DNA from: Desulfogranum japonicum DSM 18378
Lineage (GTDB): Bacteria > Desulfobacterota > Desulfobulbia > Desulfobulbales > Desulfobulbaceae
DNA length: 64,000 nucleotides
Direction of reading: 5' to 3'
Assembly: GCF_000429945.1 (NCBI RefSeq)
Contig: NZ_AUCV01000025.1
Location: 1 to 64,000 of the forward strand
Shown: positions 18,364-38,518 of the stretch, piece by piece
Layout: each line of letters opens with the position of its first letter
Position numbering within the stretch: position 1 is the first letter of the stretch
Notes under the pieces: model-generated
What the model was told of the DNA's origin: nothing
What the model saw: the letters and a program-made list of their open reading frames with translations, nothing else
The model's database searches: none
Position numbers and translations under genes: made by a program

Positions 18364-18484
18364 ATTCCCTGTTAATGAAATTGCCGCCTGTTATCACCAA
18401 CAGGCGGTGATAAGCTTTTTGTTTGGTGGTGCTGCAATAAATCTGACATATGAACGATCTCATATTTCATGACAGGAGGATAAA

Positions 18485-19693: not shown

Positions 19694-19717
19694 TAACGCT
19701 GTTTAGGAAAAAAATGA

Positions 19718-19745
19718 AGCCGAGGACTTTGTCCTCGGCTTTTTT
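19718..19745 (+). terminator. Intrinsic terminator after qmoC
   Basis: Perfect 10-bp stem AGCCGAGGAC / GTCCTCGGCT (19718-19727, 19731-19740) with a TTT loop, followed by five T. An A-run precedes the stem. Confidence 0.93.
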
Positions 19746-19894
19746 GTTTGCAATTCATGCTCAGTAGTGTATAACAGCCCTCCAACTTTAGCAGCCAATG
19801 AGATGTCTGCCACTGAAGAGAATTGATACTTTCCGCATGAGAGTGGATCAAGATAAAGGCATCTCAGGAAATTAAAAAATAAAGAAAAAAGTTA

Positions 19895-19923
19895 TTGACA
19901 AGATTTTAAATAGGCTGTATAAT
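19895..19923 (+). promoter_or_regulatory. Consensus promoter of the tRNA-tuf operon
   Basis: TTGACA (19895-19900), 17 bases, TATAAT (19918-19923): a perfect sigma-70 consensus, preceded by an A-rich upstream stretch (19871-19890). The first tRNA starts 13 bases after the -10. This is the strongest promoter in the window and fits stable-RNA and EF-Tu expression. Confidence 0.9.
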
Positions 19924-19935
19924 GATAGGGTTAGC

Positions 19936-20011
19936 GCTGGCGTAGCTCAACTGGCAGAGCACCTGATTTGTAATCAGGGGGTTGCGGGTTCAAGTCCCAT
20001 CGCCAGCTCCA
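19936..20011 (+). tRNA. tRNA-Thr (TGT)
   Basis: 76 nt with encoded CCA. The acceptor GCTGGCG pairs with CGCCAGC; the anticodon arm CTGATTTGTAATCAG carries TGT; the T-arm has GGTTCAAGTCC. First of four clustered tRNAs in the order Thr-Tyr-Gly-Thr, as upstream of tufB in enterobacteria. Confidence 0.96.
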
Positions 20012-20069
20012 GATTGCGTTGTAGCCAGCTTTGCTCTCTCTGTAGAAAGCTGGATTGAAATATATAAGT

Positions 20070-20154
20070 GGAGGGGTTCCCGAGCGGCCAAAGGGAACAG
20101 ACTGTAAATCTGTCGGCGGAGCCTTCGGAGGTTCGAATCCTCCCCCCTCCACCA
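20070..20154 (+). tRNA. tRNA-Tyr (GTA)
   Basis: 85 nt class II tRNA with a long variable arm and encoded CCA. The acceptor GGAGGGG pairs with CCCCTCC; the anticodon arm AGACTGTAAATCT carries GTA. Confidence 0.96.
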
Positions 20155-20206
20155 CTTATACCTGGTCAATGAATATCGTCGTTCCGGTAGTGTTAGCCTG
20201 ACGTGA

Positions 20207-20282
20207 GCGGGAATAGCTCAATTGGTAGAGCATCAGCCTTCCAAGCTGAGGGTTGCGGGTTCGAGTCTCGTTTCCCGCTCCA
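20207..20282 (+). tRNA. tRNA-Gly (TCC)
   Basis: 76 nt with encoded CCA. The acceptor GCGGGAA pairs with TTCCCGC; the anticodon arm CAGCCTTCCAAGCTG carries TCC. Confidence 0.96.
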
Positions 20283-20333
20283 ATGGTTTAGTTTTAGGAA
20301 CGTTTTGTAAGAGTATTTCACAAATAATATAGG

Positions 20334-20408
20334 GCCCACGTAACTCAGTGGTAGAGTACCTCCTTGGTAAGGAGGAAGTCACCGGTTCAAGTCCGGTCGT
20401 GGGCTCCA
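20334..20408 (+). tRNA. tRNA-Thr (GGT)
   Basis: 75 nt with encoded CCA. The acceptor GCCCACG pairs with CGTGGGC; the anticodon loop TTGGTAA carries GGT. Directly upstream of tuf. Confidence 0.96.
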
Positions 20409-20473
20409 TGTGTCAGTCGATTGCCTATTTTGTCGACTGAGTCATGTTGAACTTTTGTCCGAGGAGACGTGAA

Positions 20474-21664
20474 ATGGCAAAGGAAAAATTTGAGCGGACT
20501 AAGCCGCATGTCAATGTTGGAACAATTGGGCACATTGACCATGGCAAAACGACTCTGACTGCAGCAATTACCCGTGTATTGTCTACAAAGGGGCAGGCAG
20601 CTTTTACGGATTTTAGCGAAATCGACAAGGCTCCTGAAGAAAAAGAGCGTGGTATTACAATTGCGACAGCTCATGTAGAGTACGAAACAGAGAAGCGCCA
20701 CTATGCGCATGTTGACTGTCCGGGCCATGCTGACTATATCAAGAATATGATTACTGGTGCTGCTCAGATGGATGGCGCTATTCTGGTAGTGGGCGCTGAT
20801 GACGGCCCTATGCCTCAGACTCGTGAGCATATCTTGCTTGCTCGTCAGGTTGGCGTGCCTGCGATTGTTGTGTTTTTGAATAAATGCGACATGGTTGACG
20901 ACGAGGAGTTGATCGAACTGGTAGAAATGGAGTTGAGAGAGCTGCTCGACAAGTATGATTTCCCAGGCGATGATATTCCTATCGTTCGAGGATCTGCGTT
21001 GCTTGCTCTTGAGAATCCTGACGATGCAGATAAGTCTGCATGTGTATGGGAACTCATGGAAGCTGTGGATAGCTATGTGCCTGAGCCAGAGCGCGATATT
21101 GACAAGCCTTTCTTGATGCCTGTTGAGGATGTATTTTCAATCTCCGGGCGCGGTACCGTTGCTACTGGACGTATTGAGCGTGGTGTTTTGAAGGTTGGCG
21201 ATGAAGTTGAAATCGTTGGTATTCGTGATACCGCCAAGACAACCTGTACCGGCGTTGAGATGTTCCGAAAGTTGCTTGATGAGGGGCAGGCTGGTGACAA
21301 TATTGGCGCACTTCTTCGCGGTGTGAAGCGTGAAGAGATTGTTCGTGGCCAGGTTTTGGCTAAGCCAGGTAGTATTACGCCTCATAAGAAATTTAAAGCT
21401 GAGGCTTACATCTTGACCAAGGAAGAGGGCGGGCGCCATACTCCTTTCTTTAACGGTTATCGTCCTCAGTTCTATTTCAGAACAACCGACGTTACTGGAG
21501 TGGTGACCCTTGAAGAGGGTGTAGAGATGGTAATGCCCGGCGATAATATCCATATCATTGGTGAGCTTATCACTCCTATCGCTATGGAGGCTGGACTTCG
21601 CTTCGCTATTCGCGAGGGTGGTCGTACCGTAGGAGCAGGTGTTGTTAGTGAGATCATCGAATAG
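20474..21664 (+). CDS. tuf: Elongation factor Tu
   Basis: 396 residues. GTPase that delivers aminoacyl-tRNA to the ribosome. The P-loop is GHIDHGKT (19-26); DCPGHADY and NKCD complete the G domain, and domains 2 and 3 follow to the usual EIIE end. The start is ATG 20474 with GAGGAG 9 bases upstream; an in-frame ATG at 20444 would add ten residues unlike EF-Tu. It is the only intact tuf in the window. A second copy between fusA and rpsJ has decayed, so this tRNA-linked gene probably carries the EF-Tu supply. Confidence 0.98.
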
Positions 21665-21721
21665 TGATTGACATTTTACCTGTTTTGCCAGGGAACTGGC
21701 GGGGTAACAATCAAGTGAATT

Positions 21722-21750
21722 ACTGCAGCCGGGCTTGTCCCGGCTGCAGT
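21722..21750 (+). other. Strong hairpin after tuf
   Basis: Perfect 12-bp stem ACTGCAGCCGGG / CCCGGCTGCAGT with a CTTGT loop. No T-run follows, so it is more likely an RNA-processing or mRNA-protecting structure than a full terminator. It separates the abundant tuf message from rpmG-secE. Confidence 0.6.
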
Positions 21751-21769
21751 TCCTCTATCAGGGTTTATC

Positions 21770-21919
21770 ATGAGAGACATAATCACGCTAGCTTGCCAGG
21801 AGTGTAAGCAGCGAAATTATACCACTACCAAAAATAAACGGACTATTCCGCATAAGTTGGAATTGAGAAAATTCTGTCCGTTTTGCAAAACGCATACTCC
21901 GCACAAAGAGACAAAATAA
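21770..21919 (+). CDS. rpmG: Ribosomal protein L33 (zinc type)
   Basis: 49 residues from ATG 21770: [12 protein letters not shown], ending at HKETK. A large-subunit protein near the E site. C9/C12 and C36/C39 form the zinc site of the cysteine-containing L33 form. The upstream signal (AGGG at about 21760) is modest. The order rpmG-tRNA-Trp-secE-nusG is widespread in bacteria. Confidence 0.93.
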
Positions 21920-21925
21920 TATTGC

Positions 21926-22002
21926 AGGCCAGTAGCTCGAATTGGTAGAGCACCGGACTCCAAATCCGGGGGTTGGGGGTTCGAGTCCCTCCTGGCCTGC
22001 CA
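21926..22002 (+). tRNA. tRNA-Trp (CCA)
   Basis: 77 nt with encoded CCA. The acceptor AGGCCAG pairs with CTGGCCT; the anticodon arm CCGGACTCCAAATCCGG carries CCA. Seven bases after the rpmG stop, so it must be cut from the rpmG-secE transcript. Confidence 0.95.
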
Positions 22003-22062
22003 TGCTTTTTCAAAGCGTGGGTCGTCCGAGTCGGCTGGTGACAACTAAATACAGCGAAGAAC

Positions 22063-22338
22063 ATGGCAGCTAAAAAGAAATCCCGTGGCGTTAAAGCTAA
22101 GCAGCTTGTCAAAGCTGAAGGTAACCAGAAAGAACAGCATTCGTACCTGACCCCATCCGGCATACGAGCTTTTATCCAGGAAGTTAAGGCTGAGTTTCAG
22201 AAAATCGCTTGGCCTACTAAAAAGGTGACAACTGGATTGACGGGCTTTGTTGTGTTGCTGGTCGTCATTATTGCCACATATCTCGGTACAGTTGATCTTC
22301 TTCTTGGCAAACTCGTCACATTCATAATTAATTCTTGA
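22063..22338 (+). CDS. secE: Preprotein translocase subunit SecE
   Basis: 91 residues. A small membrane clamp of the SecYEG channel. It has a very basic N-terminus, then the conserved amphipathic EVKAEFQKIAWPTKKV (about 45-60), and one membrane span (about 64-82). The short single-span form is standard outside enterobacteria. Followed by nusG after 15 bases. Confidence 0.93.
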   Translation: MAAKKKSRGVKAKQLVKAEGNQKEQHSYLTPSGIRAFIQEVKAEFQKIAWPTKKVTTGLTGFVVLLVVIIATYLGTVDLLLGKLVTFIINS

Positions 22339-22353
22339 TTCTCCTACGTACTT

Positions 22354-22917
22354 ATGGCTAAGCACTGGTACATAATTCATACCCACACCGGCTTCGAGAA
22401 TAAGGTCAAGGCAACGCTTGAAGAGCGCGTCAAAATGGCCGGACAGGAAGAGTTGTTCGGTGAAATACTGGTGCCTACGGAGCAGGTGGTCGAGATGGTA
22501 AAAGGCTCCAGGAAGACATCCGAGCGAAAGTTTTTTCCCGGTTATATCCTGGTCAATATGGAAATGAATGAACACAGTTGGCATACTGTTCAGGAAACAC
22601 CCAGGGTAACAGGTTTTGTTGGTGTTAATGTTTCCCAGGCCGGGGCAGAGAAGGATATTTATAAACGTATACCTGCTCTTACTGATAAAGAGGCCATGCA
22701 GATAATTGGCCGTATGGAAGAGGGTGCCAATAAGCCGAAGCCGAAAGTGGTTTTTGCAGAAGGCGATGTCGTACGCGTTGTAGATGGCCCCTTTGCAAAC
22801 TTTCAGGGCGTTATTGAAGAAGTTTATCCCGATAAAGGTAGGGTCAAGGTTATGGTCTCTATTTTTGGACGATCTACTCCTGTTGAACTTGAATATATTC
22901 AGGTAAGTAAAAATTAA
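22354..22917 (+). CDS. nusG: Transcription termination/antitermination factor NusG
   Basis: 187 residues. The N-terminal NGN domain (WYIIHTHTGFENKVK at the start, GYILVNMEM and PRVTGFVG inside) binds RNA polymerase. The C-terminal KOW domain (VRVVDGPFANFQGVIEEV) contacts Rho or S10. Just downstream of secE, as usual. Confidence 0.95.
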   Translation: MAKHWYIIHTHTGFENKVKATLEERVKMAGQEELFGEILVPTEQVVEMVKGSRKTSERKFFPGYILVNMEMNEHSWHTVQETPRVTGFVGVNVSQAGAEKDIYKRIPALTDKEAMQIIGRMEEGANKPKPKVVFAEGDVVRVVDGPFANFQGVIEEVYPDKGRVKVMVSIFGRSTPVELEYIQVSKN

Positions 22918-22944
22918 CGTGCGAAAGCTCGTGTAGGTGTAAAA

Positions 22945-23370
22945 ATGGCAAAGAAAATACAGTCGTATATTAAACTGCAAATACCCGCTGGTAAGGCTAA
23001 TCCTTCTCCACCAGTTGGCCCTGCGCTCGGTCAGCATGGCGTCAACATTATGGACTTTTGTAAGGCGTTCAACGCTCAGACGCAGTCTGTTGGGGATACT
23101 ATTATACCCGTTGTTATTACCGTTTACGCGGATCGCTCATTCAGCTTCATTACCAAAACACCACCAGCTTCTGTGCTTTTGCTTAAAGCTGCTGGTTTGG
23201 CAAAAGGCTCCAGTAATCCAAAGCGAGAACGTGTAGCGGAACTTTCTGAGGATAAAATCAGGGAAATAGCTGAAATTAAAATGCCTGATCTGAATGCGTA
23301 TACAATTGAGCAGGCTATCAATATTGTGAAAGGCACCGCACGTAGTTGTGGTATCACTGTTGTAAAATAA
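22945..23370 (+). CDS. rplK: Ribosomal protein L11
   Basis: 141 residues. Forms the base of the L10-L12 stalk and the thiostrepton-binding site with 23S rRNA. The proline-rich N-terminal switch [18 protein letters not shown] (about 21-38) and the C-terminal RNA-binding part (RSCGITV) are present. It pairs with rplA downstream. Confidence 0.97.
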
Positions 23371-23439
23371 GCAACAGGCCGATTCGTTTACCCCTGCAGT
23401 ACCCATTGCAGCGGGGAGAATTTATATAGGGTGAATACA

Positions 23440-24144
23440 ATGCCAAAGCGTGGTAAACATTATAAGAATGCAGCTGTAAACATTGATCGTTCCAAACTGT
23501 ATGACCTTGAAGAGGCCATTGGACTGGTACTTAATGCTAAATATGCGAAATTTGATGAGTCCGTCGATATCGCTGTACGACTGGGCGTAGATCCTCGTCA
23601 TGCTGACCAAATGGTACGGTCTAGTGTCATATTACCTAACGGTACTGGTAAGGAAGTTAGGGTTCTTGTTTTTGCTAAAGGTGATAAAGAGGCCGAAGCG
23701 CTCGCTGCCGGTGCTGATTATGCCGGTTCTGATGAGCTTGTTTCCAAAATAAAAGATGGCTGGCTAGAATTTGACAAAACCATTGCTACACCTGATATGA
23801 TGGGTGAAGTGGGCAAAATAGGCCGTATTCTTGGACCACGTAACTTAATGCCAAACGCCAAACTTGGCACCGTTACCTTTGATATCGATCGTGTGGTCAA
23901 AGAAGTTAAAATGGGCAAAGTTGACTTCCGTGTTGATAAAGCAGGTGTTGTGCATGCTGCCATTGGAAAAGCAAGTTTTGGAGCCGAAAAACTGCAACAG
24001 AATATCACTGCTTTTGTAGATAAGCTTATCCAATTGAAGCCTTCTACCAGTAAAGGTGTATATCTTAAGACAATAGCTCTCTCAACTACGATGGGACCTG
24101 GTGTTAAGGTAGACACTCTCCAGGTAAGAGGGTTAATTAAATAA
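23440..24144 (+). CDS. rplA: Ribosomal protein L1
   Basis: 234 residues from ATG 23440, which has GGGTGA 8 bases upstream; a GTG at 23431 would overlap that site. L1 stalk protein and, in many bacteria, translational repressor of its own mRNA. Signatures are [24 protein letters not shown] and [14 protein letters not shown] (about 127-140). Confidence 0.97.
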
Positions 24145-24175
24145 TAAACACGTGTCATAGCACGTTTTTATATAC

Positions 24176-24200
24176 ACAGTGCACCTGAGTGGTGCACTGT
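24176..24200 (+). other. Hairpin at the start of the rplJ leader
   Basis: Perfect 10-bp stem ACAGTGCACC / GGTGCACTGT with a TGAGT loop, 31 bases after rplA. A weaker stem (ACGTG-N6-CACGT plus TTTTT) lies just before it. Together they probably reduce read-through from rplA or define the processed 5' end of the rplJ message. Confidence 0.5.
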
Positions 24201-24360
24201 AAAACCTGGGAAGGTCAAAGACAGCAGGAACGTAATGTTTAAACATCGAAAGATGTCCTGCCGAGGCCGAAAGCTGATACCTTGAGATCAAACGATTACG
24301 TCTTGATAATTCTCCTGTCTGCATCTTTGACAGTCCCGTTTAAACCTTATTAGGAGGAAA
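24201..24360 (+). promoter_or_regulatory. L10 leader (autoregulatory mRNA structure)
   Basis: The 200-base gap before rplJ contains the L10-leader pattern, including CTGCCGAGGCCGAAAGCTGATA (kink-turn region, about 24259-24280) and CTGTCTGCATCTTTGACAG (about 24313-24331). AGGAGG follows. In this family the L10-L12 complex binds the leader and represses rplJL. Assigned by recall of the motif, not by a covariance model. Confidence 0.75.
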
Positions 24361-24366
24361 ATACCG

Positions 24367-24885
24367 TTGGATCGCAATCAAAAGACCGATCTGGTCAGTG
24401 CGCTCAACGAAACCTTTTCCAAGGCTAAGTTCGCTGTAGTTACAGATTACTGCGGACTCAAGGTTACGGAACTGGAAGAATTGCGCAGCAATCTTCGTGA
24501 AAACAACGCACAATTCCAGATTGCAAAAAACACACTGCTGAAATTAGCTGTGAAAGGTACCGAATATGAGGCTCTGGCTGAATATTTTACCGGAACAACG
24601 GCTGTAGCGGTTAGTTTTGATGAGCCTGTTGGTGCTGCAAAGGCCTTGGCTAAATTTGCCAAGGACAATGAAAATTTGCAGATTCGAAGTGCAGGTCTTG
24701 AAGGCTCACTTCTCACCGCCGATGATGTAGTGGCTCTTTCTAAACTGCCAAGCAGAGAAGAACTCCTTGCTAAACTGTTGGGTACAATGAATGCTGTTCC
24801 CACAGGGTTTGTACGTGTTCTTAATGCTATTCCGCAGAAACTCGTCTACGCGATGGGTGCAATCAGAGATCAAAAAGAAAATTAA
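24367..24885 (+). CDS. rplJ: Ribosomal protein L10
   Basis: 172 residues, TTG start with AGGAGG 12 bases upstream. N-terminal rRNA-binding domain (VVTDYCGLKVTELEELR, QIAKNTLLKLA) and a C-terminal helix that carries L7/L12 dimers. Regulated by its own leader (24201-24360). Confidence 0.95.
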   Translation: MDRNQKTDLVSALNETFSKAKFAVVTDYCGLKVTELEELRSNLRENNAQFQIAKNTLLKLAVKGTEYEALAEYFTGTTAVAVSFDEPVGAAKALAKFAKDNENLQIRSAGLEGSLLTADDVVALSKLPSREELLAKLLGTMNAVPTGFVRVLNAIPQKLVYAMGAIRDQKEN

Positions 24886-24950
24886 TATGTTGTTCATAAT
24901 GCCTGCGTTTATGGCGATGAACACTGTACATTCCCCCAGGAGGAATTATC

Positions 24951-25334
24951 ATGTCTGTAACAAAAGAAGATGTAATTGAATTTATTTCCAATATGACCGT
25001 TCTTGAGCTTTCTGAGCTCATCACCGAATTAGAAGAGAAATTTGGTGTATCTGCAGCCGCTCCCGTAGCCGTTGCAGCAGCTGGGGCACCTGCTGGTGAT
25101 GCAGGCGCTGCAGCAGAAGAAAAAACTGAATTTGATGTAATCCTGGCCAATGCCGGTGATCAGAAAATCAAAGTAATTAAAGAAGTCCGCGCTATTACCT
25201 CTCTTGGTCTTAAAGAAGCTAAAGCTCTGGTTGAGGAAGCACCATCTCCAATCAAAGAAGGTGTTACCAAAGAAGAAGCTGAAGATATCAAAACCAAGAT
25301 TGAAGGCGCTGGCGGTACAGTAGAGATAAAATAA
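24951..25334 (+). CDS. rplL: Ribosomal protein L7/L12
   Basis: 127 residues. N-terminal dimerisation helix region ([20 protein letters not shown]), an Ala/Gly-rich hinge (about 35-58) and the C-terminal factor-binding domain ([20 protein letters not shown]). It recruits translational GTPases. CCAGGAGGA is a strong ribosome binding site, in keeping with its multi-copy stoichiometry. Confidence 0.97.
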
Positions 25335-25395
25335 GCTATTCACAGACAGCACTGGTCGAGGACGGCCTCGACGCAGTCACTTCAGTTTACGAGGT

Positions 25396-25426
25396 AACGC
25401 TACAGGATGTTGAATCCTGTAGCGTT
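25396..25426 (+). other. Perfect 13-bp hairpin between rplL and rpoB
   Basis: AACGCTACAGGAT / ATCCTGTAGCGTT around a GTTGA loop. No T-run follows. In E. coli the rplL-rpoB gap holds an attenuator and an RNase III site that lower rpoBC expression relative to ribosomal proteins; this hairpin is a good candidate for the same role (inference). Confidence 0.6.
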
Positions 25427-25541
25427 GCTGTGTTTACAGGAAAGAGTTTCAGTCTTGTCTGTTTTTTTACCTTAAATTAGGCACTTGTGATTAGCCGTAA
25501 TCGCCAGTGCTTATATTTCGCGGAAAATTTCGAGGGAATAC

Positions 25542-28500
25542 ATGAAAAGAGTACGTAAGAGTTTTGCCAAAACAAGTCACATAGTTGAACCGCCACATCT
25601 CATAGCTATGCAGCGAGAATCTTACGAGCATTTTCTTCAAAGGGATGTACCACCTGATGAGCGTAAGGAGCATGGGCTTCAGGCGATTTTTCAAGACATC
25701 TTCCCTATAACTGATTTTAATGGATTATGCTCTCTTGAATTTGTCCGTTATAATTTCGGTGAACCCAAGTATACGGTTGAAGAATGCATTGAAAGAGGCA
25801 TGACTTTTGAAGTTCCAGTTAAAATTACCGTACGTTTGATCACCTTTGACGTCGATGAGGAAACCGGGGCGCAATCTGTTCGGGACATTAAAGAACAGGA
25901 AATTTTTCTTGGTGCACTCCCGCTCATGACAAAAGATGGTGTCTTCGTTGTTAATGGTACCGAGCGAGTTGTGGTCAATCAGTTACAGCGTTCTCCTGGA
26001 CTGTTCTTCACCCATGATAACGGGAAATCCCACTCTTCCGGCAAGCGTTTGTATTCTGCTCGAATAATTCCTGTCCGAGGCTCTTGGCTGGATTTTGAAT
26101 TTGATGTGAAAGACGTCCTTTATGTTCGCATTGACCGACGCAGAAAACTTCCCGTCACAGTGCTTCTTAAAGCCCTCGGTTATAGTGACCAGGAATTGTT
26201 GGGTGAATTTTATCACGAGCAGACAATTCAGGTTGGGGACCACTCTTTTTCCGTAGATTATGATCCTGTAATTTTTACCGGTCAGCGACTGCAGAACGAT
26301 CTCATTGATCCTAATTCAGGTGATGTTTTAGGGAAAAAGGGACGTAAAATATCCAAAGCCCTTGCCCGTCGTATCAGTGATAGCGGCATCACTTCATTGC
26401 CAATTCAGGTTGAGGATATTCTCGGACGCTACTTTTCTGAAGATGTTATCAGTCCGGTTACTGGAGAGATTGTAGGTTTCTGCAATGAACCTGTAACCGA
26501 AGCTTTCCTCGAGTCTTTACTTGAAGAGCAGATTACCTCATTTAAAGTACTGTTTATCGACGGCGTTCACGTTACCGAATCTTTTCGTAAAACGCTCTCT
26601 CTAGACAAAGTACGCGATAAAGAAGAGGCGTTGATAGAGATATACCGTCGACTGCGACCATCCAGTCCTCCAACTGCCGAAATTGCACAAAACTTTTTTG
26701 ATAATCTGTTTTTCAATCCTGCAAGCTATGATCTATCAGAAGTCGGGCGCTATAAGATTAATACCAAGTTGAATGTCGATACTCCAATTGAAGTTCGAAC
26801 ACTGACCAAGGAAGACATTCTTAAAGGTGTAAAACATCTCGTTCATATCAAAGATGAGTTAAAAGACGGCGACGATATTGATCACCTTGGAAATCGACGT
26901 GTACGAACTGTCGGTGAATTGTGCGAAAATCAGTATCGTATGGGGCTTGTTCGTATGGAGAGAGCTATCAAAGAGCGAATGACTCTCCAAGAAATAGAAA
27001 CTCTGATGCCCCATGACCTGGTTAATCCAAAACCTGTGACTTCAGCCATTAAGGAATTCTTCGGTACTTCCCAATTATCTCAATTCATGGACCAGACCAA
27101 TCCGTTGTCGGAAGTCACTCATAAAAGAAGGTTGTCCGCATTGGGACCGGGTGGTTTGTCTCGTGAACGTGCCGGTTTTGAAGTACGTGACGTTCATCCT
27201 ACCCATTATGGTAGAATATGTCCTGTAGAGACACCTGAGGGACCAAACATCGGGTTGATCGTTTCTTTGGCTACCTACGCTACTGTCAATCCGTTCGGTT
27301 TCATTGAAACCCCTTATCGGTATGTTCAGGAACGCAGAGTTTCAGATGATTACAAGTATCTATCTGCTATTCAGGAAGAGGAATTTACCATTGCGCCTGC
27401 CAAAGTTAACCTTGAAGGTAATTTCATTGCCGACGATTATCTCATCGCTCGGCAGGAAAATGAAGTTTCAATGGTAGCTGCTGATGATATCAATATGATG
27501 GATGTAGCTCCTAACCAATTGGTTTCCGTTGCTGCTTCTCTTATTCCCTTTCTGGAAAACGATGACGCCAACCGTGCGCTCATGGGATCTAACATGCAGC
27601 GGCAGGCTGTTCCCCTTTTGAGTACCCGGTCTCCTTTGGTGGGAACAGGTATTGAAAAATACGTTGCACAAGACTCAGGGGCATGTCTTCTTGCAGGTGG
27701 TGACGGTGTGGTTGAAGAGGTTGATGCCTGCCGTATCGTAGTTCGTTATGATGAACCAGGAGTTGATGGATTTGATACAGGTGTTGGTGTATACAGGCTG
27801 TCCAAATATAAAAAATCAAATCAGAACACTTGTTTTAACCAGAAACCATTGGTCTTGCCTGGGGAGAGAGTAACCAAAGGCTACGTTCTTGCAGATGGTC
27901 CTTCCTGTGAGCTTGGCGAATTAGCGCTTGGTAAAAATGTTACCATCGCCTTCATGCCTTGGCGCGGATATAATTTCGAAGACTCGATACTTGTTAATGA
28001 ACGGCTTCTCAAAGAAGATACCTTTACTTCCGTTCATATTGAGATTTTTGAAACCATGGCTCGAGACACCAAGCTTGGAAAAGAAGAGATCACAAGGGAC
28101 ATCCCAAATGTCGGAGAAGAGGGGTTGCGTAATCTTGATGACTCGGGAATTGTCCGCATTGGGGCTGAAGTCGGCCCTGGAGATATGCTTGTCGGCAAGG
28201 TAACTCCGAAAGGTGAAAGTATGTTGTCACCTGAGGAAAAACTGCTTCGTGCTATCTTTGGTGAAAAAGCAGGTGATGTAAAAGATTCCTCTCTTCGTGT
28301 CCCTCCTGGCGTTGAAGGGGTTGTTATTGATGCAAAAGTGTTTTCCAGGAAAGGTGTCGACAAAGACGAACGTACTCTCATGATCGAGGAGATTGAGATT
28401 GAAAGACTCAATCGCGACATGGAAGATGAACTGAAAAGTCTGAAAAAGGGTGTTCGTAAGGCCCTTGGTGATCTTCTCGATGGCAGGACTGCAAAAAGCG

Positions 28501-29615
28501 ATGTTCTTGACAAGCAGGGGAATGTTATCCTGAAACTCGGCAAGCAGTTGACATCTGGGATTATTGAACAAGTAGAATTTAACAGGCTGTCCAGTCTGGA
28601 TTTCTCCGAAAAAGCCAAATATCTTGGAGAAATGGAGGCTATATTTAATCGCTATTCAAGCCAGGCTAACATTGTACGAGCCAGGTACGAAGGGATTGTT
28701 GAACGGATGGAAAAAGGCGATGACCTGCCTCCTGGTGTAGTAAAGATGGTTAAAGTTTATGTTGCAACGAAACGTAAGCTTGCGGTTGGTGATAAAATGG
28801 CTGGACGACATGGTAATAAAGGTGTTGTTTCCCGTCTCTTGCCTGAAGAGGATATGCCGTTTTTCGCTGATGGCACAACTGTAGATATCGTTCTTAATCC
28901 TCTAGGTGTACCCTCGCGTATGAATGTCGGTCAGGTACTTGAATGTCATCTCGGTTTTGCTGCTAAAAGGCTTGGTGAGAAATTATCCCTTCTTGCTCGT
29001 CGCAAAGAACTCGAACTTGTAAAAGAGCAGATGCAGCGTATTTATAGCGAAGATGAGCGACGTCGTATCATGGAAAATCTCACTGATGACGAACTCCTGG
29101 ATTTTGCACGTAAAGCGAAATACGGCTTGCATGTTGCGACACCGGTGTTTGATGGTGCTTCTGAATCAGAAATACGGCAAATGCTTGTCGAGGCCGGCGT
29201 TGACGAGGTCGGGCAATCAACATTACATGATGGGTTAACAGGTGAGGCCTTTGATAACCAGGTTACCGTTGGGGTCATGTATATGCTGAAACTCCACCAT
29301 TTGGTAGACAATAAAATCCATGCTCGTTCAACAGGACCGTATTCTCTAGTAACACAGCAGCCGCTCGGAGGTAAGGCCCAGTTTGGCGGACAGCGGCTTG
29401 GTGAGATGGAAGTGTGGGCTATGGAAGCATATGGTGCAGCCTACACGCTGAAAGAATTCCTTACCGTTAAATCCGACGATGTGGAGGGACGAACAACCAT
29501 GTATGAGAAAATTGTTAAAGGAAACAACTTCTTGGAAACTGGTCTTCCTGAATCCTTTCACGTTCTCGTCAAAGAGCTCAAAGGGCTCTGCCTTGATGTG
29601 GAACTGCAGGAATAG
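25542..29615 (+). CDS. rpoB: RNA polymerase beta subunit
   Basis: 1357 residues, full length. Recognisable regions: the rifampicin pocket ([21 protein letters not shown] about 509-529, [10 protein letters not shown], wild-type-like D, H and S residues), the catalytic lobe ([15 protein letters not shown]) and the C-terminal clamp ([17 protein letters not shown]). The ribosome binding site is weak (CGAGGG). 69 bases before rpoC. Confidence 0.98.
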
Positions 29616-29684
29616 CGCCCCTGGCGTATATAACTCTGGTAAACAACTGCAGACGGATTTAATAGACAATATATAGGTGATTTC

Positions 29685-32600
29685 GTGGAAGAACTGTTCA
29701 ATTTCTTTGCTAAACCAAAAGGGCCAGTCAGTTTTAATAAAGTAAAAATTTCTCTGGCGTCCCCTGAAAAAATCAGAGAATGGTCCCACGGTGAGGTTAA
29801 AAAGCCGGAAACCATCAATTACCGTACCTTCAAGCCTGAACGTGATGGCCTCTTTTGCGCTAAAATTTTTGGGCCTGTGAAGGATTACGAGTGTAATTGC
29901 GGTAAATATAAACGCATGAAACACAGAGGTGTTGTCTGTGAGAAATGCGGTGTTGAAGTTATCCAGTCTAAGGTTCGCCGGGAGAGACTTGGTCACATTG
30001 AACTTGCAGCGCCAGTTGCTCATATATGGTTTCTCAAGAGTCTTCCTTCTAAAATAGGCGCGATTCTTGACATGACTCTGAAGCAGCTGGAGCGTATTCT
30101 CTATTTTGAATCCTATGCTGTTGTAACTTCAGAGGTAGAAGATTTACCTGTCGGCTCTTTGCTCAATGAAGAACAGTATCGGAGTGCCCTGGATCTGTAT
30201 CCCGGGCAATTTCGAGTTGGTATTGGCGCCGAAGCAATTCGTGAAATGCTCATGGATCTTGACCTCAAAGAGCTGTCCGAGACATTGCGCGAAGAGATGA
30301 AGACCACGGGTTCCGCTACAAAACGTGCCAAATACGGTAAGAGATTGACCGTCGTTGAAGCGTTCAGGGATTCCGGCAACAAGCCTGAGTGGATGATTTT
30401 GGAGGTTATTCCGGTCCTTCCACCAGATTTACGTCCTCTCGTTCCCCTTGAAGGTGGCAGGTTCGCCACATCAGATCTCAATGATCTTTACCGGCGTGTA
30501 ATCAATCGTAATAACCGACTTAAACGCCTGCTCGAACTTGATGCGCCCGACATCATTATTCGCAACGAGAAACGGATGCTACAAGAGGCCGTCGACGTTC
30601 TGTTTGACAACGGCCGCAGAGGCCGCACCATTACAGGACCAAACAAGCGACCATTGAAGTCTCTTTCAGACATGCTCAAAGGGAAGCAGGGGCGGTTCCG
30701 TCAGAATCTTCTTGGTAAGCGTGTCGACTACTCCGGTCGTTCGGTTATCGTTGTCGGTCCCCATTTGCGTCTGCATCAATGCGGCTTGCCTAAAAAGATG
30801 GCACTGGAACTATTTAAGCCTTTTATATACAATCGCCTTGAACGTAAAGGATATGTGACAACCATTAAAAGTGCCCGGAAAATGGTTGAAAAAGGTGCCA
30901 AGGAAGTCTGGGACGTTCTTGATGACATTGTACGTGAATATCCTGTTATTCTCAACAGGGCACCGACTCTTCATCGCCTCGGTATGCAGGCTTTCGAAGT
31001 TGTTTTGATAGAAGGAAAGGCTATTCAATTGCATCCGCTTGTCTGTGCAGCATTTAATGCTGACTTTGACGGTGACCAGATGGCAGTGCACGTGCCATTA
31101 TCCGTCGAGGCACAGGTTGAGGCGCGAGTGTTGATGATGTCCACCAACAACATCCTCAGTCCTGCCAATGGTGGCCCGATTATTATTCCTAGTCAGGATA
31201 TTGTCCTTGGGCTGTATTACATGACCAGAGAACGCCTTGGCGTTGCAGGAGAAGGCGGGCGATTCGGTAGTCCCGCTGAGGTCCGTATAGCATATGATCA
31301 CGGTGCTGTGCATTTGCAGGCTAGGATTCACGCACGAATTAAAGGCAAAATGGTAACGACCACTGTCGGTCGTGTCATTGTTGGTGAACTTCTGCCTGAC
31401 AGCGTACCTTTTTCCCTGGTCAACAAAGAGCTTGCCAAAAAGGAACTCGCATTTCTCATTGACTACACCTATCGTCATGCCGGCACCAAGGATACTGTAA
31501 TTCTTGCAGATCGTCTGAAGGATCTCGGCTATGAAAATGCAACCTTGGCCGGGATATCCATATGCATCAACGATATGAAAATTCCGGTGCGTAAAGAAGA
31601 GTTTGTTGAGGATGCGGAGAAGGAAGCTGCCGAAGTTGATCAGCAATACAGTGACGGTTTGATCACTGATGGTGAGAAATACAACAAAATCATCGATATC
31701 TGGTCCAAAGCCACGGATAAAATCACCAAAGAGATGATGGATGAGATGGCTGTTGAGTTCACCCCTGATAAAAATGGACAAATCGAGGAAATCAAAAGTT
31801 TCAATGCTGTTTATATAATGGCTGATTCCGGCGCTCGAGGCTCTAAAGATCAGATTCGACAGCTGGCAGGTATGCGAGGCTTGATGGCCAAACCATCAGG
31901 TGAGATTATTGAGACCCCAATTAAAGCCAATTTTCGTGAGGGACTTAACGTCCTTGAGTATTTTATTTCGACCCATGGTGCGCGTAAAGGACTCGCTGAT
32001 ACAGCTTTGAAGACTGCCAACTCCGGATATCTAACCCGAAGATTGGTCGACGTTGCTCAGGATGCCACGATTGTTCAGAAAGACTGTGGAACAATGCGTG
32101 GTGTCAAGGCTGAACCACTTATTGAGGGTGGTGAGGTTATCGTTCGAATCGGTGAGCGTATATTAGGTCGTGTTGCTCTGGAGGATGTTGTTGATCCCCA
32201 CTCTGGAGAGGTCCTTGTCGAAATGGATGAGGAGATCACCGAGGATAAAGTCGAAGCCATTGAAGCAGCAGGTATCGATCGAGTAATGATTCGTTCCGTA
32301 CTCACCTGCGAAGCAAAACGCGGTGTTTGTGCTATGTGTTATGGTCGCGATCTAGGACGCGGGCATATGGTAAATATTGGTGAGGCGGTGGGGATTATAG
32401 CTGCCCAGTCAATTGGTGAGCCCGGTACCCAGCTGACCATGCGTACTTTCCATATCGGTGGTACTGCAAGCCGGTCTGTTGAGCAGGCCGAAGTACGATC
32501 TCAACGTGGTGGAACCATCCAAAGCAAGAATCTGCATTCAGTTCGCAATAGGGATGGATTTCTAGTAGTTATGAACAGAAATGCAGAAATTACTGTGCTA

Positions 32601-33752
32601 GACGATCAAGGTGTGGACAGGGAGCGTTTCCCTGTACCATATGGTGCAGTGCTCAGGATTGAAGATGGTGCATCTGTGGAACCTGGCAGTGTTCTGGCTG
32701 ACTGGGATGCCTTTTCAATACCTATCGTGGCCGAAGTCGGTGGTAAGGTTAAATATGGTGACGTTGTCGAAGGTGATTCTATGCAGGAACGCGTGGATCA
32801 GATCACAGGAAAAGCCAGTAAGGTGATAACAACCGTGACCTCGACCAAGCAGATGAATCCCCGTATATCCATTAAAGATGAACGCGGAAGAACGTTGAAA
32901 TTACAGGAGAGTGAATTGGCGGCTCGTTACCCACTTCCTGTAGGTTCTATTATCACTGTTGATGAGCATGATATAATTACTCCTGGTACTGTTATAGCTA
33001 AAATTCCACGAGAGACAACTAAAACCAAGGATATTACCGGTGGTTTGCCGAGGGTTGCCGAACTGTTTGAGGTACGTAAACCAAAAGAGCAGGCAGTTAT
33101 CAGTGAAATAGACGGCCTGGTGAGTTTTGGCAAGGATCTCAAAGGGAAGAGGCGGGTTATTGTTACCCCTGAGACAGGCGAACCCATGGAATATCTTGTT
33201 CCCAAAGCGAAACATATCACTGTACATGAAGGTGATCACGTTCAGGCAGGCGAGCGGTTAATGGAAGGTTCGGTCCTGCCTAACGACATCCTGAAGGTAC
33301 TTGGTGCTGAGGAATTGGCAAGGTTTTTAGTGAACGAGATTCAAGAAGTTTATCGTCTGCAAGGCGTTAAGATCAATGACAAGCACATTGAAACCATAGT
33401 AAGGCAGATGCTTAAACGAGTTCGCATTACAGACCCTGGAGATTCTGTCTTTATGCTTGACCAACAGGTCGAGTGGTGGAAATTCCAGGAGGAGAATGAA
33501 CGGCTTATTGCTCAAGGCGATTTGCAGCCGGCCAGTGCAGAACCGTTATTGTTAGGTGTTACAAAGGCGTCTTTGTCTACGGATTCCTTTATATCTGCCG
33601 CATCTTTCCAGGAAACCACCAAAGTCTTAACCAATGCCGCAATGGCTGGTAAGATTGACGATCTGTCCGGTTTGAAAGAGAATGTCATCATGGGTCGTTT
33701 GATTTCTGCCGGTACCGGTCTTGCGAGATACAGAATCGCCAAGGAAAATTGA
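29685..33752 (+). CDS. rpoC: RNA polymerase beta' subunit
   Basis: 1355 residues, GTG start. The catalytic Mg site NADFDGDQ is at 458-465. The N-terminal zinc site is [20 protein letters not shown] (about 69-88); the second zinc site is [15 protein letters not shown] near 870. Bridge and trigger regions ([10 protein letters not shown]-like, here [15 protein letters not shown]) follow. The stop is followed within 13 bases by the -35 of the str promoter. Confidence 0.98.
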
Positions 33753-33764
33753 TTGAAATTTAAC

Positions 33765-33793
33765 TTGACCTTTCAACGTATATAGTTTAAATA
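33765..33793 (+). promoter_or_regulatory. Promoter of the str operon (rpsL)
   Basis: TTGACC (33765-33770), 17 bases, TAAATA (33788-33793); five and four of six consensus bases respectively. It would start transcription about 60 bases before rpsL. No clear terminator separates it from rpoC, so read-through may add. Confidence 0.6.
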
Positions 33794-33862
33794 TCCAACC
33801 TTTCGTGCTCATTTTCTGTTACACAGATGCATGATCGACTATTTTGTAAAGGAGTGGTTTGA

Positions 33863-34234
33863 ATGCCCACAATTAATCAGCTCGTCCGTAATAGACGAAA
33901 AAAAATTAGTAAGCGGTCAAATACCCCTGCACTGCAAAACTGTCCTCAAAAACGGGGAGTTTGTGTGCGTGTATACACCACGACGCCTAAAAAACCTAAC
34001 TCAGCTCTTCGTAAGGTTGCGAGGGTGAGGCTCACAAACGGGATCGAGGTGACTTCTTATATACCTGGTATTGGCCATAATCTCCAAGAGCACTCCGTTG
34101 TGTTGATTCGGGGTGGTCGTGTAAAGGATCTTCCTGGTGTTCGTTATCACATCGTTCGTGGTACTCTGGATACGCTGGGAGTTAATGATCGTCGTCAAGG
34201 TCGATCCAAATATGGAGCGAAACGGCCTAAGTAA
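33863..34234 (+). CDS. rpsL: Ribosomal protein S12
   Basis: 123 residues. Decoding-centre protein. [12 protein letters not shown] with K43 (the usual streptomycin-sensitive residue) and [13 protein letters not shown] with the aspartate normally methylthiolated are intact. GGAGTGG lies upstream of the ATG. First gene of str. Confidence 0.98.
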
Positions 34235-34264
34235 TTCGCTGTTTATTGCGCCGTAGGGAATATT

Positions 34265-34738
34265 ATGCCAAGAAAGAAATTATTAGATAAACGTCCGGTA
34301 AGTCCAGATCCTCGATACAATTCAGTGTTGGTGTCCAAGTTCACCAATGGTCTGATGGAGAGCGGGAAGAAGAATACTGCAAGAAATATCTTCTATGGTG
34401 CTATGGATATCATAGAACAGAAGATGGCAGACCAAGAACCGCTGTCTGTATTTGAAGAAGCTATGGAAAACGTTCGACCTCGTATTGAGGTTAAGAGTCG
34501 TCGTGTTGGTGGCGCGACGTATCAGGTGCCTGTTGAGGTTCGCCCTGAACGTAGGAATGCGTTGGCGATCCGTTGGCTTATAGGGTTTGCGAAAAACAGA
34601 TCCGGCCAATCCATGGCTGATAAATTGGCTGCCGAGTTGCTTGACGCGTTCAATAGTCGTGGTGCATCTGTGAAAAAGAAAGATGATACCCATAAAATGG
34701 CTGAAGCGAACAAGGCGTTTGCTCACTATCGATGGTAG
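34265..34738 (+). CDS. rpsG: Ribosomal protein S7
   Basis: 157 residues. Small-subunit head protein that nucleates assembly at the E site. Signatures are [22 protein letters not shown] and [12 protein letters not shown], with GFAKNR further on. Thirty bases after rpsL. The gap to fusA contains a separate promoter. Confidence 0.97.
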
Positions 34739-34775
34739 TGTCGAATAAAAAATGCAACTTGCAAGCGAAAAAGTG

Positions 34776-34804
34776 TTGACACTGCTTTGTAAATGATGTA
34801 AATA
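34776..34804 (+). promoter_or_regulatory. Internal promoter before fusA
   Basis: TTGACA (34776-34781), 17 bases, TAAATA (34799-34804). CTGCT and AGCAG overlapping it could form a weak stem followed by CATTTTTTT. The sequence just downstream (34805-34835) recurs after fusA, before the decayed tuf. Confidence 0.6.
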
Positions 34805-34868
34805 GAGCAGCATTTTTTTGTTTGGATTTTAAATCTAAAAATGAGATCATTGAGAATAGGTGAACATT

Positions 34869-36947
34869 GTGGCTGGTGCGGATGCGTTATCCAACGTGCG
34901 CAATATTGGTATTATGGCGCATATAGATGCGGGGAAAACCACTACAACTGAACGGATTCTCTTTTATACTGGAAAATCTCATAAGATCGGAGAAGTCCAT
35001 GACGGAAATGCTGTCATGGATTGGATGGAGCAAGAGCAGGAGCGTGGTATTACCATTACTTCTGCTGCTACGACCTGTCTGTGGAAAGACTTTGTTATTA
35101 ATATAATAGATACTCCAGGGCATGTGGACTTTACCGTAGAGGTGGAGCGTAGCCTGAGAGTGTTGGATGGGGTCGTAGCGGTTTTTTGTGCCGTTGGTGG
35201 TGTTGAGCCACAGTCGGAAACGGTGTGGCGGCAAGCCGATCGGTATAAGATTCCACGAATTGCTTTTGTGAATAAGATGGATCGTATTGGGGCTTCGTTT
35301 GATCGATGTCTCACTCAGATGCGAGAGCGTTTAGGGGCTGATCCTGTAGCTGTTATGCTGCCCGTCGGGAGCGAAGACACCTTTCGTGGTGTCATTGACT
35401 TGATTGAGTACAAGTTCCTGACTTTTGATGAAGACTCTTTGGGTATGGAAATTACTGAAGAGCCAATTCCTGATGAATTAGAAGGCGAATCATCGGCCGC
35501 CAAGATGATACTCCTCGAGAAGTTGGCCGACTTCGATGAGGGGATCATGGAAAAATATTTAGATGAACAAGAGATCACTCCCGGTGAGTTGCGAGCTGCT
35601 TTAAGGAAAGCGTCGCTTGATCGGCAAATAGTCCCTGTGCTGTGTGGATCAGCTTTTAAAAATAAAGGGGTACAGCCGTTAATTGACGCCATTGCTTGGT
35701 ATCTCCCATCACCCGTAGATGTACCCCCTGTTGAGGGAAAGGATAAGGACGGTGCGCCGCTTATCCGGAAACCTGTGAGGAGTGAACAGTTCTGTGGTTT
35801 GGTTTTTAAACTGCAGTCTGATCCGTTTGTTGGCAGCCTGGCATTTATTCGGGTCTATGCCGGCTCTTTTAAGGTTGGGCAGAAAATGTTCAACCCTGTA
35901 AAGAGAAAATCGGAAAAAATCTCAAAATTATTAAAGCTTCACGCCAATAAGCGTGAGGAAGTTACAGAGCTATGTGCCGGAGATATCGGTGCTGTAGTCG
36001 GGTTGAAATTCACCACTACAGGTGACACTCTCTGTTCCAGTGGAGATTTTATCGTTCTGGAAGAGATGATCTTTCCCGAGCCTGTTATAGGGATTGCTAT
36101 TGAACCTAAATCCAAGGCTGATGAAGCTAAATTGGCTGAAAGTCTCGATAAGGTTATGAAAGAGGATCCCAGTTTCAAGGTGTCTATTAATGAAGATACC
36201 GGGCAGACAATTATATCAGGAATGGGAGAGTTACACCTGGAGATTATCGTTGATCGGTTGATACGGGAGTTTAAAGTGTCAGCTAATATCGGTAAGCCGC
36301 AGGTAGCCTATCGTGAGACGGTTACCAGTGTTGGTCTTGGTGAAGGCAGGTTTGAAACTCTTACTACTGGCAAAGAGCAGTATGGTCATGTGGAAATTGA
36401 ACTTCGCCCAGCCGAGCCTGGCAGTGGAAAAAGTTTTCATTCTGCAGTTGATACGAAGACAATTCCGGCTCAATATATTGAAGCCATTAAAAAGGGTGTG
36501 CTTGACAGTCTAGATTCAGGGCCGCTTATCGGCTACCCCGTTATAGATGTTGAAGCCCATCTGGTTGGTGGATCGTATGATGAAGAACGTTCCACTGAAA
36601 TGGCCTTCGGAGTCGCTGCAACCATGGCATGCCGTAAAGCTGCGATGGATGGAGAACCTCGCTTACTGGAACCGTTGATGCAGTTGGAGGTTATAACGCC
36701 TGAGGAATATCTTGGGGATGTTATAAATGATCTCAACAGAAAGCGTGCACATGTAGCAGGGGTAGAAGCGGATAATAATAGGCAAGTTGTTAAAGCTAGG
36801 GTTGCACTATCAGAGATGTTTGGGTATTCGACGGATTTGAGGTCTGCTACCCAGGGTAGAGCTACTTTTAGTATGCAATTTGCACAATTTACAGAGGTTC
36901 CAGCAAAGAGAGCTGAAGAAATCATACGCAAGATTCGCGGTGTATAG
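34869..36947 (+). CDS. fusA: Elongation factor G
   Basis: 692 residues from GTG 34869, chosen because AGGTGA (34858-34863) sits five bases upstream. An in-frame GTG at 34860 lies inside that site. Translocation GTPase: P-loop AHIDAGKT (17-24), switch region [23 protein letters not shown], then domains II-V. It follows rpsG and precedes the tuf remnant, the usual str order rpsL-rpsG-fusA-tuf. Confidence 0.96.
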
Positions 36948-37149
36948 TTTGTTTTGAGTCTCGCAAGGTTAAATGAGCAGCATTTTTTCTCTCTGGATCT
37001 GTAATGGTATTATCCTCTCCATTCCAGGGCTATCTTTATTAGTAGCTGTGAGGACAGAGGTCCGTATTTGAAACGGTGTGTACTGGCTATGCATTATTAC
37101 AGTAACACATTGCTTTCGTAATTGAAGATGTATCAGCGGTAGTAATTGT
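36948..37149. other. Gap after fusA with repeated leader motif
   Basis: About 200 bases without a gene. GAGCAGCATTTTTT at 36975-36988, and the bases after it to about 37005, match 34805-34835 upstream of fusA with few changes. This may be the old leader of the lost tuf copy. Confidence 0.45.
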
Positions 37150-37454
37150 CGGTGGAAACACGACACTATAGAATTGGAACCGCATATTAAAATAAGGCCG
37201 AGGCATACATCCTGACAAAGGAGTGTGGTGGGCCGCATAATCCATATACATGGATAGCGTCCCTCGATTTTACTTCAGGACCACCGACGTAACGGGCGTT
37301 TTCACGCTTTGTAATAGCGTGGAACTGTTATGCCTGGTGATAAGTGCACATCACTGGTGAATGATCGCCCCCCTTTTTACTGCGCATTTTGCCAGCAGGT
37401 TAGGAAGGTGGACGTACCGTCGGTGCTGGTGTGATCAGCGAAATTATCGAATAA
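37150..37454 (+). pseudogene. tuf: Decayed 3' end of a second tuf gene
   Basis: From about 37194 the DNA follows the 3' end of the intact tuf at 20474-21664. AAGGCCGAGGCATACATCCT corresponds to [27 protein letters not shown] to YFRTTDV; GGTCGTACCGT-like sequence to GGRTVGAGV; and the last codons GAAATTATCGAATAA to EIIE-stop. Several indels and stops break the frame, and the 5' two thirds are gone; weaker similarity begins near 37150. It sits exactly where tufA lies in other proteobacteria. The TAA at 37452-37454 is followed at once by the rpsJ ribosome binding site. Confidence 0.85.
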
Positions 37455-37464
37455 GAGGAGTACT

Positions 37465-37779
37465 ATGATTCCTGCTGATAAGATCCGTATTAGGTTGAAG
37501 GGATACGATCATAAACTGCTTGACCTTTCAACGCGAGAAATAGTTGAAACTGCAAGAAGAACAGGCGCGACTATTGCCGGCCCGATTCCTCTGCCTACAA
37601 GTACCAATAAATATACAGTACTTCGTTCACCGCATGTGGATAAAAAATCCAGAGAGCAGTTCGAAATGAGAACCCACCGTCGGTTGCTTGACATACTTGA
37701 GCCGACTCAACAGACGATTGACGCGCTGATGAAGCTGGAACTCTCAGCAGGTGTGGACGTAGAGATCAAACTCCCGTAA
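37465..37779 (+). CDS. rpsJ: Ribosomal protein S10 (NusE)
   Basis: 104 residues. Small-subunit head protein, also the NusB partner in antitermination. Signatures include [13 protein letters not shown] and GPIPLPT. AGAGGAG (37454-37460) is directly joined to the end of the tuf remnant. First gene of the S10 operon, which here has no clear promoter of its own in the gap; transcription may come from the fusA promoter. Confidence 0.97.
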
Positions 37780-37858
37780 GAAATCTTGGTGTTTCATTGG
37801 GGTTGGTCGAAAAAAGATTATTAGATCCACTAGTGATTATTTGAATACGGGTAGAACA

Positions 37859-38491
37859 ATGCCGAAGACAAAAGGAATTCTGGGCCGAAAGATTGGTATG
37901 ACACGTGTGTATGACGAGCACGGTAGATCTATACCTGTTACCGTTGTTGAAGCCGGTCCCTGTACCATTCTGCAGAAAAAGACTACCGACAAGGAAGGCT
38001 ATAATGCCATTCAAGTTGGTTTTCTGGAAAAGAAAACCAGTAGAATGAACAAACCTGAAGCGGGACATTTTAAACGTTCTGGCGGTAAAGGGTTTTATCA
38101 TATCAAGGAATTTCGTGTAACTGATCCAGGCGAATACGAATTGGGTCAGGAGATCACTGCAAGTGAACTGCTCAAAATTGGGGATTCCGTTGATATATCT
38201 GGTAAGTCCAAAGGTAGGGGTTACCAGGGTGTAATGAAAAGACACGGATTTGCCGGTGGTAAGGCTTCACACGGGTCTGGCTTTCATCGAGCACCAGGTT
38301 CTATCGGCTGTAGTGCTTGGCCGTCACGTGTTGTTAAGGGCAAGAAGCTTCCAGGTCATATGGGTGATGCTCTGGTTACGCAAAAGAATCTTACTATCGT
38401 TGACATCAGGGAAGAAGATAATGTCATCCTTATAAAAGGTACAATCCCTGGGGCAAAGAACGGTTTGATAAGTATCTACACTAAAGCATAA
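37859..38491 (+). CDS. rplC: Ribosomal protein L3
   Basis: 210 residues from ATG 37859; an in-frame ATG at 37841 would add six non-family residues. Early-assembly 23S-binding protein with a long finger to the peptidyl-transferase centre. ASHGSGFHRAPGSIG (about 138-152) is the conserved finger motif. GILGRKIGMTRVY opens the protein. Confidence 0.97.
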   Translation: MPKTKGILGRKIGMTRVYDEHGRSIPVTVVEAGPCTILQKKTTDKEGYNAIQVGFLEKKTSRMNKPEAGHFKRSGGKGFYHIKEFRVTDPGEYELGQEITASELLKIGDSVDISGKSKGRGYQGVMKRHGFAGGKASHGSGFHRAPGSIGCSAWPSRVVKGKKLPGHMGDALVTQKNLTIVDIREEDNVILIKGTIPGAKNGLISIYTKA

Positions 38492-38518
38492 CCCAAGGCT
38501 GCTCTTAAGGAGATACTC

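Follow-up and report, generated by a model that had tools for sequence, protein, structure and literature searches.

The window, by which we mean the whole stretch of 64,000 nucleotides that was analysed, contains an intact tuf gene (EF-Tu) in a setting of tRNA genes and, further downstream, the genes fusA and rpsJ with a gap of 517 bases between the fusA stop (36947) and the rpsJ start (37465). This gap has no forward open reading frame of at least 80 amino acids, and it holds the decayed remains of a second tuf gene. The features considered here are listed below, with the basis of each assignment in brackets; G000 denotes the window's own genome, and G001 and the following numbers denote the relatives used in comparison.

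19936..20408, + strand: tRNA-Thr, -Tyr, -Gly and -Thr cluster, upstream of the surviving tuf (RNA search)
20474..21664, + strand: intact tuf, the surviving copy, of tufB type (ORF list, protein search, Pfam)
21926..22002, + strand: tRNA-Trp, downstream of the surviving tuf (RNA search)
34860..36947, + strand: fusA (EF-G), upstream neighbour of the remnant (ORF list; Pfam EF-G domains)
36948..37178, no strand assigned: 231 nt after fusA without clear tuf signal (profile search, shuffles)
37179..37454, + strand: decayed tufA, corresponding to tuf nt 906-1191, EF-Tu residues about 302-396 and the stop (searches, alignments)
37404..37454, + strand: preserved tail, the last 17 tufA codons including the stop (alignment; 48/51 to G005)
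37431..37464, + strand: proposed upstream part of the rpsJ translation-initiation region (a function that we infer)
37465..37779, + strand: rpsJ (ribosomal protein S10), downstream neighbour of the remnant (ORF list; Pfam PF00338)

Just upstream of the tRNA-tuf cluster, at 16105-19693, are two ORFs that we take to resemble QmoB and QmoC of the sulphate-reducer redox complex. Protein search of the window's own genome, which is rated 100% complete, found a single intact tuf; the remaining eight of the ten EF-Tu protein matches had 27-38% identity and lay in other long open frames, one of them within fusA. By its tRNA context the copy at 20474 is tufB, a tRNA-flanked location being the classical tufB setting according to one account (PMC8046335).

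The remnant between fusA and rpsJ was detected by protein and by DNA comparison. With the intact EF-Tu as query, a protein search of the own genome aligned 37191-37451 with tuf residues 307-396 across five stops (E 7e-7), and an nhmmer search with a DNA profile made from 45 tufs matched 37179-37454 at E 1.3e-43, a match that extends well past the last 60 bases of the gene. Local alignment scores of the remnant were 484 and 497, compared with maxima of 170 and 164 among shuffles (300 shuffles each), and the 517-nt gap sequence matched only itself when the own genome was searched with it. The remnant carries stops and roughly 10 indels, which destroy the reading frame, and its divergence is spread over 276 nt at an identity of about 70%. 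It thus combines homology beyond chance, a position between fusA and rpsJ, a broken frame and an intact paralogue elsewhere, and 37179-37454 is a tufA pseudogene, derived from the EF-Tu gene of the str operon. A preliminary description of this DNA had placed a decayed tufA here, readable through stops and indels up to an intact GAAATTATCGAATAA end; the place, the end and the readability were all borne out, but the readable part is the last quarter of the gene (286 of 1191 nt) and not the last third, as that description had it.

The 231 nt between the fusA stop and the readable remnant gave no hit with the 45-tuf DNA profile, and their alignment with tuf nt 1-905 did not score above shuffles for three of four references; the score with the fourth, the tufA of G006, was reached by 18 of 300 shuffles. 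Looser pairwise alignments reach into this segment: one with cheap gaps starts at 36950, and one reference can be aligned from 36972. A faint residue of tuf in 36948-37178 is possible from these alignments, and the segment is probably what is left of a decayed or deleted 5' part of tufA. Other content was also sought. Sigma-70-like sites in 36700-37700 numbered four, compared with 2.2 (sd 1.5) in shuffles; the excess was not significant, and a promoter gained in the dead stretch for the S10 operon was rejected as a candidate. Terminator-like sites in the same interval numbered three, compared with 0.8 (sd 1.1) in shuffles, with weak stems; one of them, again with a weak stem, is inside the gap (37356-37369). 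A reverse-strand ORF of 89 amino acids, considered as another gene in the gap, was also rejected, its single Pfam match having an E value of 0.035 and falling under the cut-off of that family. Among RNA families searched in 19500-38500, tRNAs alone reached their gathering thresholds, with none in the gap.

We compared the same locus in relatives. The congeners G002, G003 and G006 have two intact tufs each, one of which is exactly between fusA and rpsJ, and in G001 and G004 the contig breaks within tufA and an intact-looking tail precedes rpsJ. The sister species G005 has one intact tuf and, at the same place, a decayed tufA remnant of its own; this remnant is shorter, with 253 bases counted from the fusA stop to the rpsJ start, and matches the profile at E 8.8e-49. 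In G032, which belongs to the same family but to another genus, tufA is cleanly deleted together with its tail, leaving a gap of 67 nt. With one intact tuf in the own genome and both copies kept by three congeners, the tuf at 20474 is the survivor of a former pair, as had been supposed from the window.

The region upstream of rpsJ was then surveyed across the host's order in 70 records from 67 genomes, with G001, G003 and G004 present twice and genomes known from coordinates alone left out of the counts. A tuf hit was found upstream of rpsJ in 65 of the 70 records (62 genomes). Among these 65, G000 and G005 alone had stops or net indels in as much of tufA as could be seen; 53 of the records are partial tufA genes at which the contig ends, so that decay further 5' would escape notice. 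The records without a hit were the clean deletion of G032, G045 and G125, which are cut at contig ends, and G084 and G091, which have just 47 and 40 nt upstream of rpsJ, tuf-like by eye. The survey and the intact copies of the congeners indicate that tufA before rpsJ is the ancestral arrangement and that its loss is uncommon among the resolvable cases. Some features of this region in other genomes stand apart from the question of loss. In three members of one genus (L053 in G009, L055 in G020 and L052 in G028) the gap between tufA and rpsJ measures 99-113 nt instead of the usual about 10, and by eye it seems to contain short hairpins that directly precede the ribosome binding site of rpsJ and may represent an S10 leader. 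The longest gap seen with an intact-looking tufA piece, 295 nt, is at L227 (G178). A tuf at G025:C160:921-2063 (L030), which matches from residue 16 on, has one internal TAG, representing either real decay or a MAG error.

In 21 genomes of the host's family tufA and tufB could be compared in full, and the difference between the two copies ranged from 0 (G072) to 277 of 1191 nt (G061, a MAG with 6% contamination). With 46 differences in 397 positions, the tuf proteins of G061 (L203, L204) are the most divergent of the 21 pairs, the next value being 17; this probably reflects contamination of the MAG, or else a strongly diverged pair. The host's genus, along with some others, sits at the diverged end of the range, with 229, 243 and 164 differences per 1191 nt in G002, G003 and G006, respectively (14-20%). 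In the tree the A copies of G002 and G003 cluster together, as do their B copies; in G006 its own A and B copies still cluster with each other (0.981). The pattern that marks concerted evolution, with copies more alike within a genome than between species, was accordingly not found, G006 being the counterexample. Third positions of the remnants were identical to those of the own tufB at only 31 of 71 sites in G000 and 26 of 58 in G005, and this poor match indicates that the copies had diverged before tufA was inactivated. A lapse of gene conversion may have permitted the loss of tufA; conversion is described as keeping tuf pairs alike in many lineages in one study (PMC6053082). As a separate observation, A/B differences in three genomes gather toward the 3' end, the last 60 bases holding 9 of 40 in G086 (L181 and L182), 9 of 32 in G090 (L185 and L186) and 7 of 10 in G022 (L192 and L193), as if conversion tracts ended before the tufA tail. 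Such clustering is absent from G012 (0 of 16) and G024 (1 of 26).

The end of the remnant differs from its body in preservation. In G000 the tail has no indel and is unchanged at codon positions 1 and 2 relative to the tuf consensus, and the indels stop where the tail starts, its limit having been chosen after the alignment was inspected. When the two remnants were compared, the last 51 nt aligned without gaps and with 48 identities, compared with 97 of 161 in the aligned body upstream; third positions were identical at 15 of 17 sites in the tail and 18 of 51 upstream (Fisher p 1.8e-4). Change after the loss was found at 1 of 44 sites in the tail vs 24 of 174 elsewhere (p 0.033, with few sites and a limit set post hoc). 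Functional genes were examined for constraint in the same part of the gene. Third-position variability of the last eight codons in the 21 two-copy genomes was lower in tufA (0.353) than in tufB (0.511), a difference equalled in 2 of 2000 label swaps; the corresponding count was 1 of 2000 when close relatives were left out (n=18) and 7 of 2000 for the 14 diverged pairs. The eight codons preceding these did not differ between tufA and tufB (696 of 2000), and codons 374-381 showed a weak lean in the same direction as the last eight (210, 49 and 46 of 2000 in the three sets). When tested in 15-codon bins, the gene had its lowest value in the last one (0 of 300), with 9 of 300 in the adjacent bin; the mid-gene codons 128-142 leaned equally far the opposite way (299 of 300).

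The segment 37431-37464 is composed of the last eight tufA codons, the GAGGAG ribosome binding site of rpsJ and a spacer. Because TAA followed by GAGGAG is also present in congeners with an intact tufA, the abutment of the rpsJ ribosome binding site on the tuf stop is old; the preliminary description had attributed it to the new shape of the sequence, an attribution that has to be given up. The predicted openness of the rpsJ start averaged 0.63 with native tails, 0.57 with tufB tails and 0.58 with recoded tails, a small effect among related genomes. The difference between native and recoded tails had a p value of 0.0008 over 22 rows (20 related genomes and the two remnants), and that between native and tufB tails a p value of 0.0015 with rows of equal value excluded, the tails of three genomes being identical; G061, where an rpsJ start of the expected form could not be located, was excluded from the test. 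Comparisons of the tails by minimum energy were not significant (p 0.07 and 0.43). The tail is conserved beyond coding need, as expected of a translation-initiation element of rpsJ. It is replaceable and not indispensable, since G032 lost it along with tufA.

A potential concern with a decayed tuf gene is that it might be an artefact of assembly or sequencing, because tuf pairs often break assemblies and the contigs of many relatives end within tufA. Here, however, both tuf places are on one contig, change at about 70% identity is spread over 276 nt, and in G005 the corresponding site holds a decayed copy of its own; we regard the chance of an artefact as negligible. The number of losses requires closer consideration. 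G000 and G005 are sisters, with a support of 1.000 (FastTree, S10-operon proteins), and they are the sole decayed cases seen, so that a single loss in their common ancestor, with separate decay afterwards, would be the simpler history. Of the 87 sites that do not vary among 45 functional tufs, G000 has changes at 13 and G005 at 11. No site is changed in both, the chance expectation being 1.6; this absence of common changes tells against a dead phase that the two species shared for long, but a loss near the split would be compatible with it. Two one-base deletions are robust in G000, near tuf nt 1073 and 1091, and both are missing from G005, the sole robust indel of which is a one-base deletion near nt 1103. 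At that point a deletion is permitted in G000 as well by between 10 and 28 of 46 references, according to the gap costs chosen, and a first lesion, and hence the loss, could have been shared because these indels possibly overlap; the initial lesion could also have been in the 5' part that is now missing from both. Against this, the deletions near nt 1103 differ in length (1 vs 5 bases or more), and 34 of the 46 references align G000 without one at gap costs of -12/-2. A stronger argument than the count of changed sites comes from timing. Fourfold sites of seven genes are 38% identical between G000 and G005 (417 of 1097), from which decay since the split would leave codon positions 1 and 2 about 56% ancestral. 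These positions in the remnant bodies are instead 84-85% identical to the intact tufA of G002, an extra change of about 0.13-0.14 per site compared with about 0.6 expected. Both losses thus appear to postdate the species split, with the qualification that the timing is rough, the fourfold sites being near saturation and the use of alignable bases alone biasing it to a young age. The earlier suggestion that the loss was recent enough to be readable agrees with this low level of decay. We consider a single ancestral loss unlikely; separate losses of tufA in G000 and G005 are the likeliest order and number of events from these comparisons.

The tail likewise admits of other readings. It could be conserved solely through its recent coding status, with no present role: both losses look recent, coding constraint accounts for codon positions 1 and 2, and G032 manages without a tail. 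Such a history does not readily explain why third positions in the tail are so much more alike than the 38% of fourfold sites elsewhere, why, across 21 genomes, constraint on the last eight codons is stronger in tufA than in tufB, or why the indels of G000 end at the tail, and we hold it to be doubtful, if still a serious candidate. Another proposal is that the remnant still yields a product, for instance a short peptide from the C-terminus of EF-Tu or that of a leader ORF to which rpsJ is coupled. G005 does have a 26-codon in-frame ORF that begins with ATG and ends at the tuf stop, and two of the three differences in the tail are at third positions. In G000, however, a TAG directly before the tail leaves the frame with only a GTG and 7 codons, this GTG has no obvious ribosome binding site by eye, and the body is interrupted by stops and indels; a product is very improbable. 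To judge from its conservation, the tufA tail probably doubles as a translation-start region of rpsJ, and its retention would then serve rpsJ translation. For the host's order in general, we give about even chances that the last eight tufA codons are of dual use, encoding the EF-Tu C-terminus and loading ribosomes on rpsJ, and that this constrains their synonymous sites, hinders their conversion by tufB in some genomes, and lets them survive the death of tufA.

The account that we favor, and hold with considerable confidence as a whole, is of a str-operon tufA that became a pseudogene after the copies diverged, was lost separately in two species and kept its tail for the rpsJ start. The ancestor of the genus would have had both tufA and tufB. 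As gene conversion between them lapsed, the copies would have diverged, and a damaged tufA would no longer have been repaired from tufB. In G000 tufA was most likely inactivated after the split from G005, which most likely lost its own tufA independently. The dead gene would then have decayed through substitutions and small indels, with loss of its 5' three quarters, and the last 25-50 nt would have been retained for rpsJ, whose ribosome-loading start region they make up together with the GAGGAG site. EF-Tu would now be supplied solely by the tufB of the tRNA operon, and the supply from one gene would suffice.

The tuf genes are a classic duplicate pair, kept alike over very long times, and Lathe and Bork in 2001 reportedly described an ancient tuf duplication followed by conversion and differential loss. 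It is a feature of operons that the end of an upstream gene can carry the ribosome loading site of the next; the present case differs in that the best-kept part is the end of an upstream gene that is itself dead. A literature search on tuf pseudogenes matched plastid and organelle genomes and a survey of coralline algae, subscription papers being mostly outside its scope. The function of a tufA pseudogene in plastids and organelles is presumably covered by the nucleus, whereas here it is covered by a second bacterial copy. A tufA pseudogene is likewise reported for such genomes in three papers (PMC3087542, PMC4035505, PMC6964695). For bacteria, an ancient duplication with gene conversion and lineage-specific loss is described in two others (PMC6053082, PMC8046335). 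The present locus shares with the bacterial tuf duplicates (tufA in str, tufB with tRNA genes) the same genes, the same two places and loss by lineage. It differs from the known bacterial losses in that the lost copy is still readable, that two sister species carry differently decayed remnants and that the copies had diverged before the loss. Losing one tuf copy is thus already known, and this example stands out by its unusual snapshot quality and by the testable side result on the tail.

G000 represents a tidy, modest case of tuf copy loss. Together with its relatives it provides a natural series for the end of a gene pair, from divergent copies through a partly decayed and a shorter remnant to the clean deletion of G032 in another genus. 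The sparing of the tail suggests that the tufA 3' end has a further role, in the translation of rpsJ, which can be tested.
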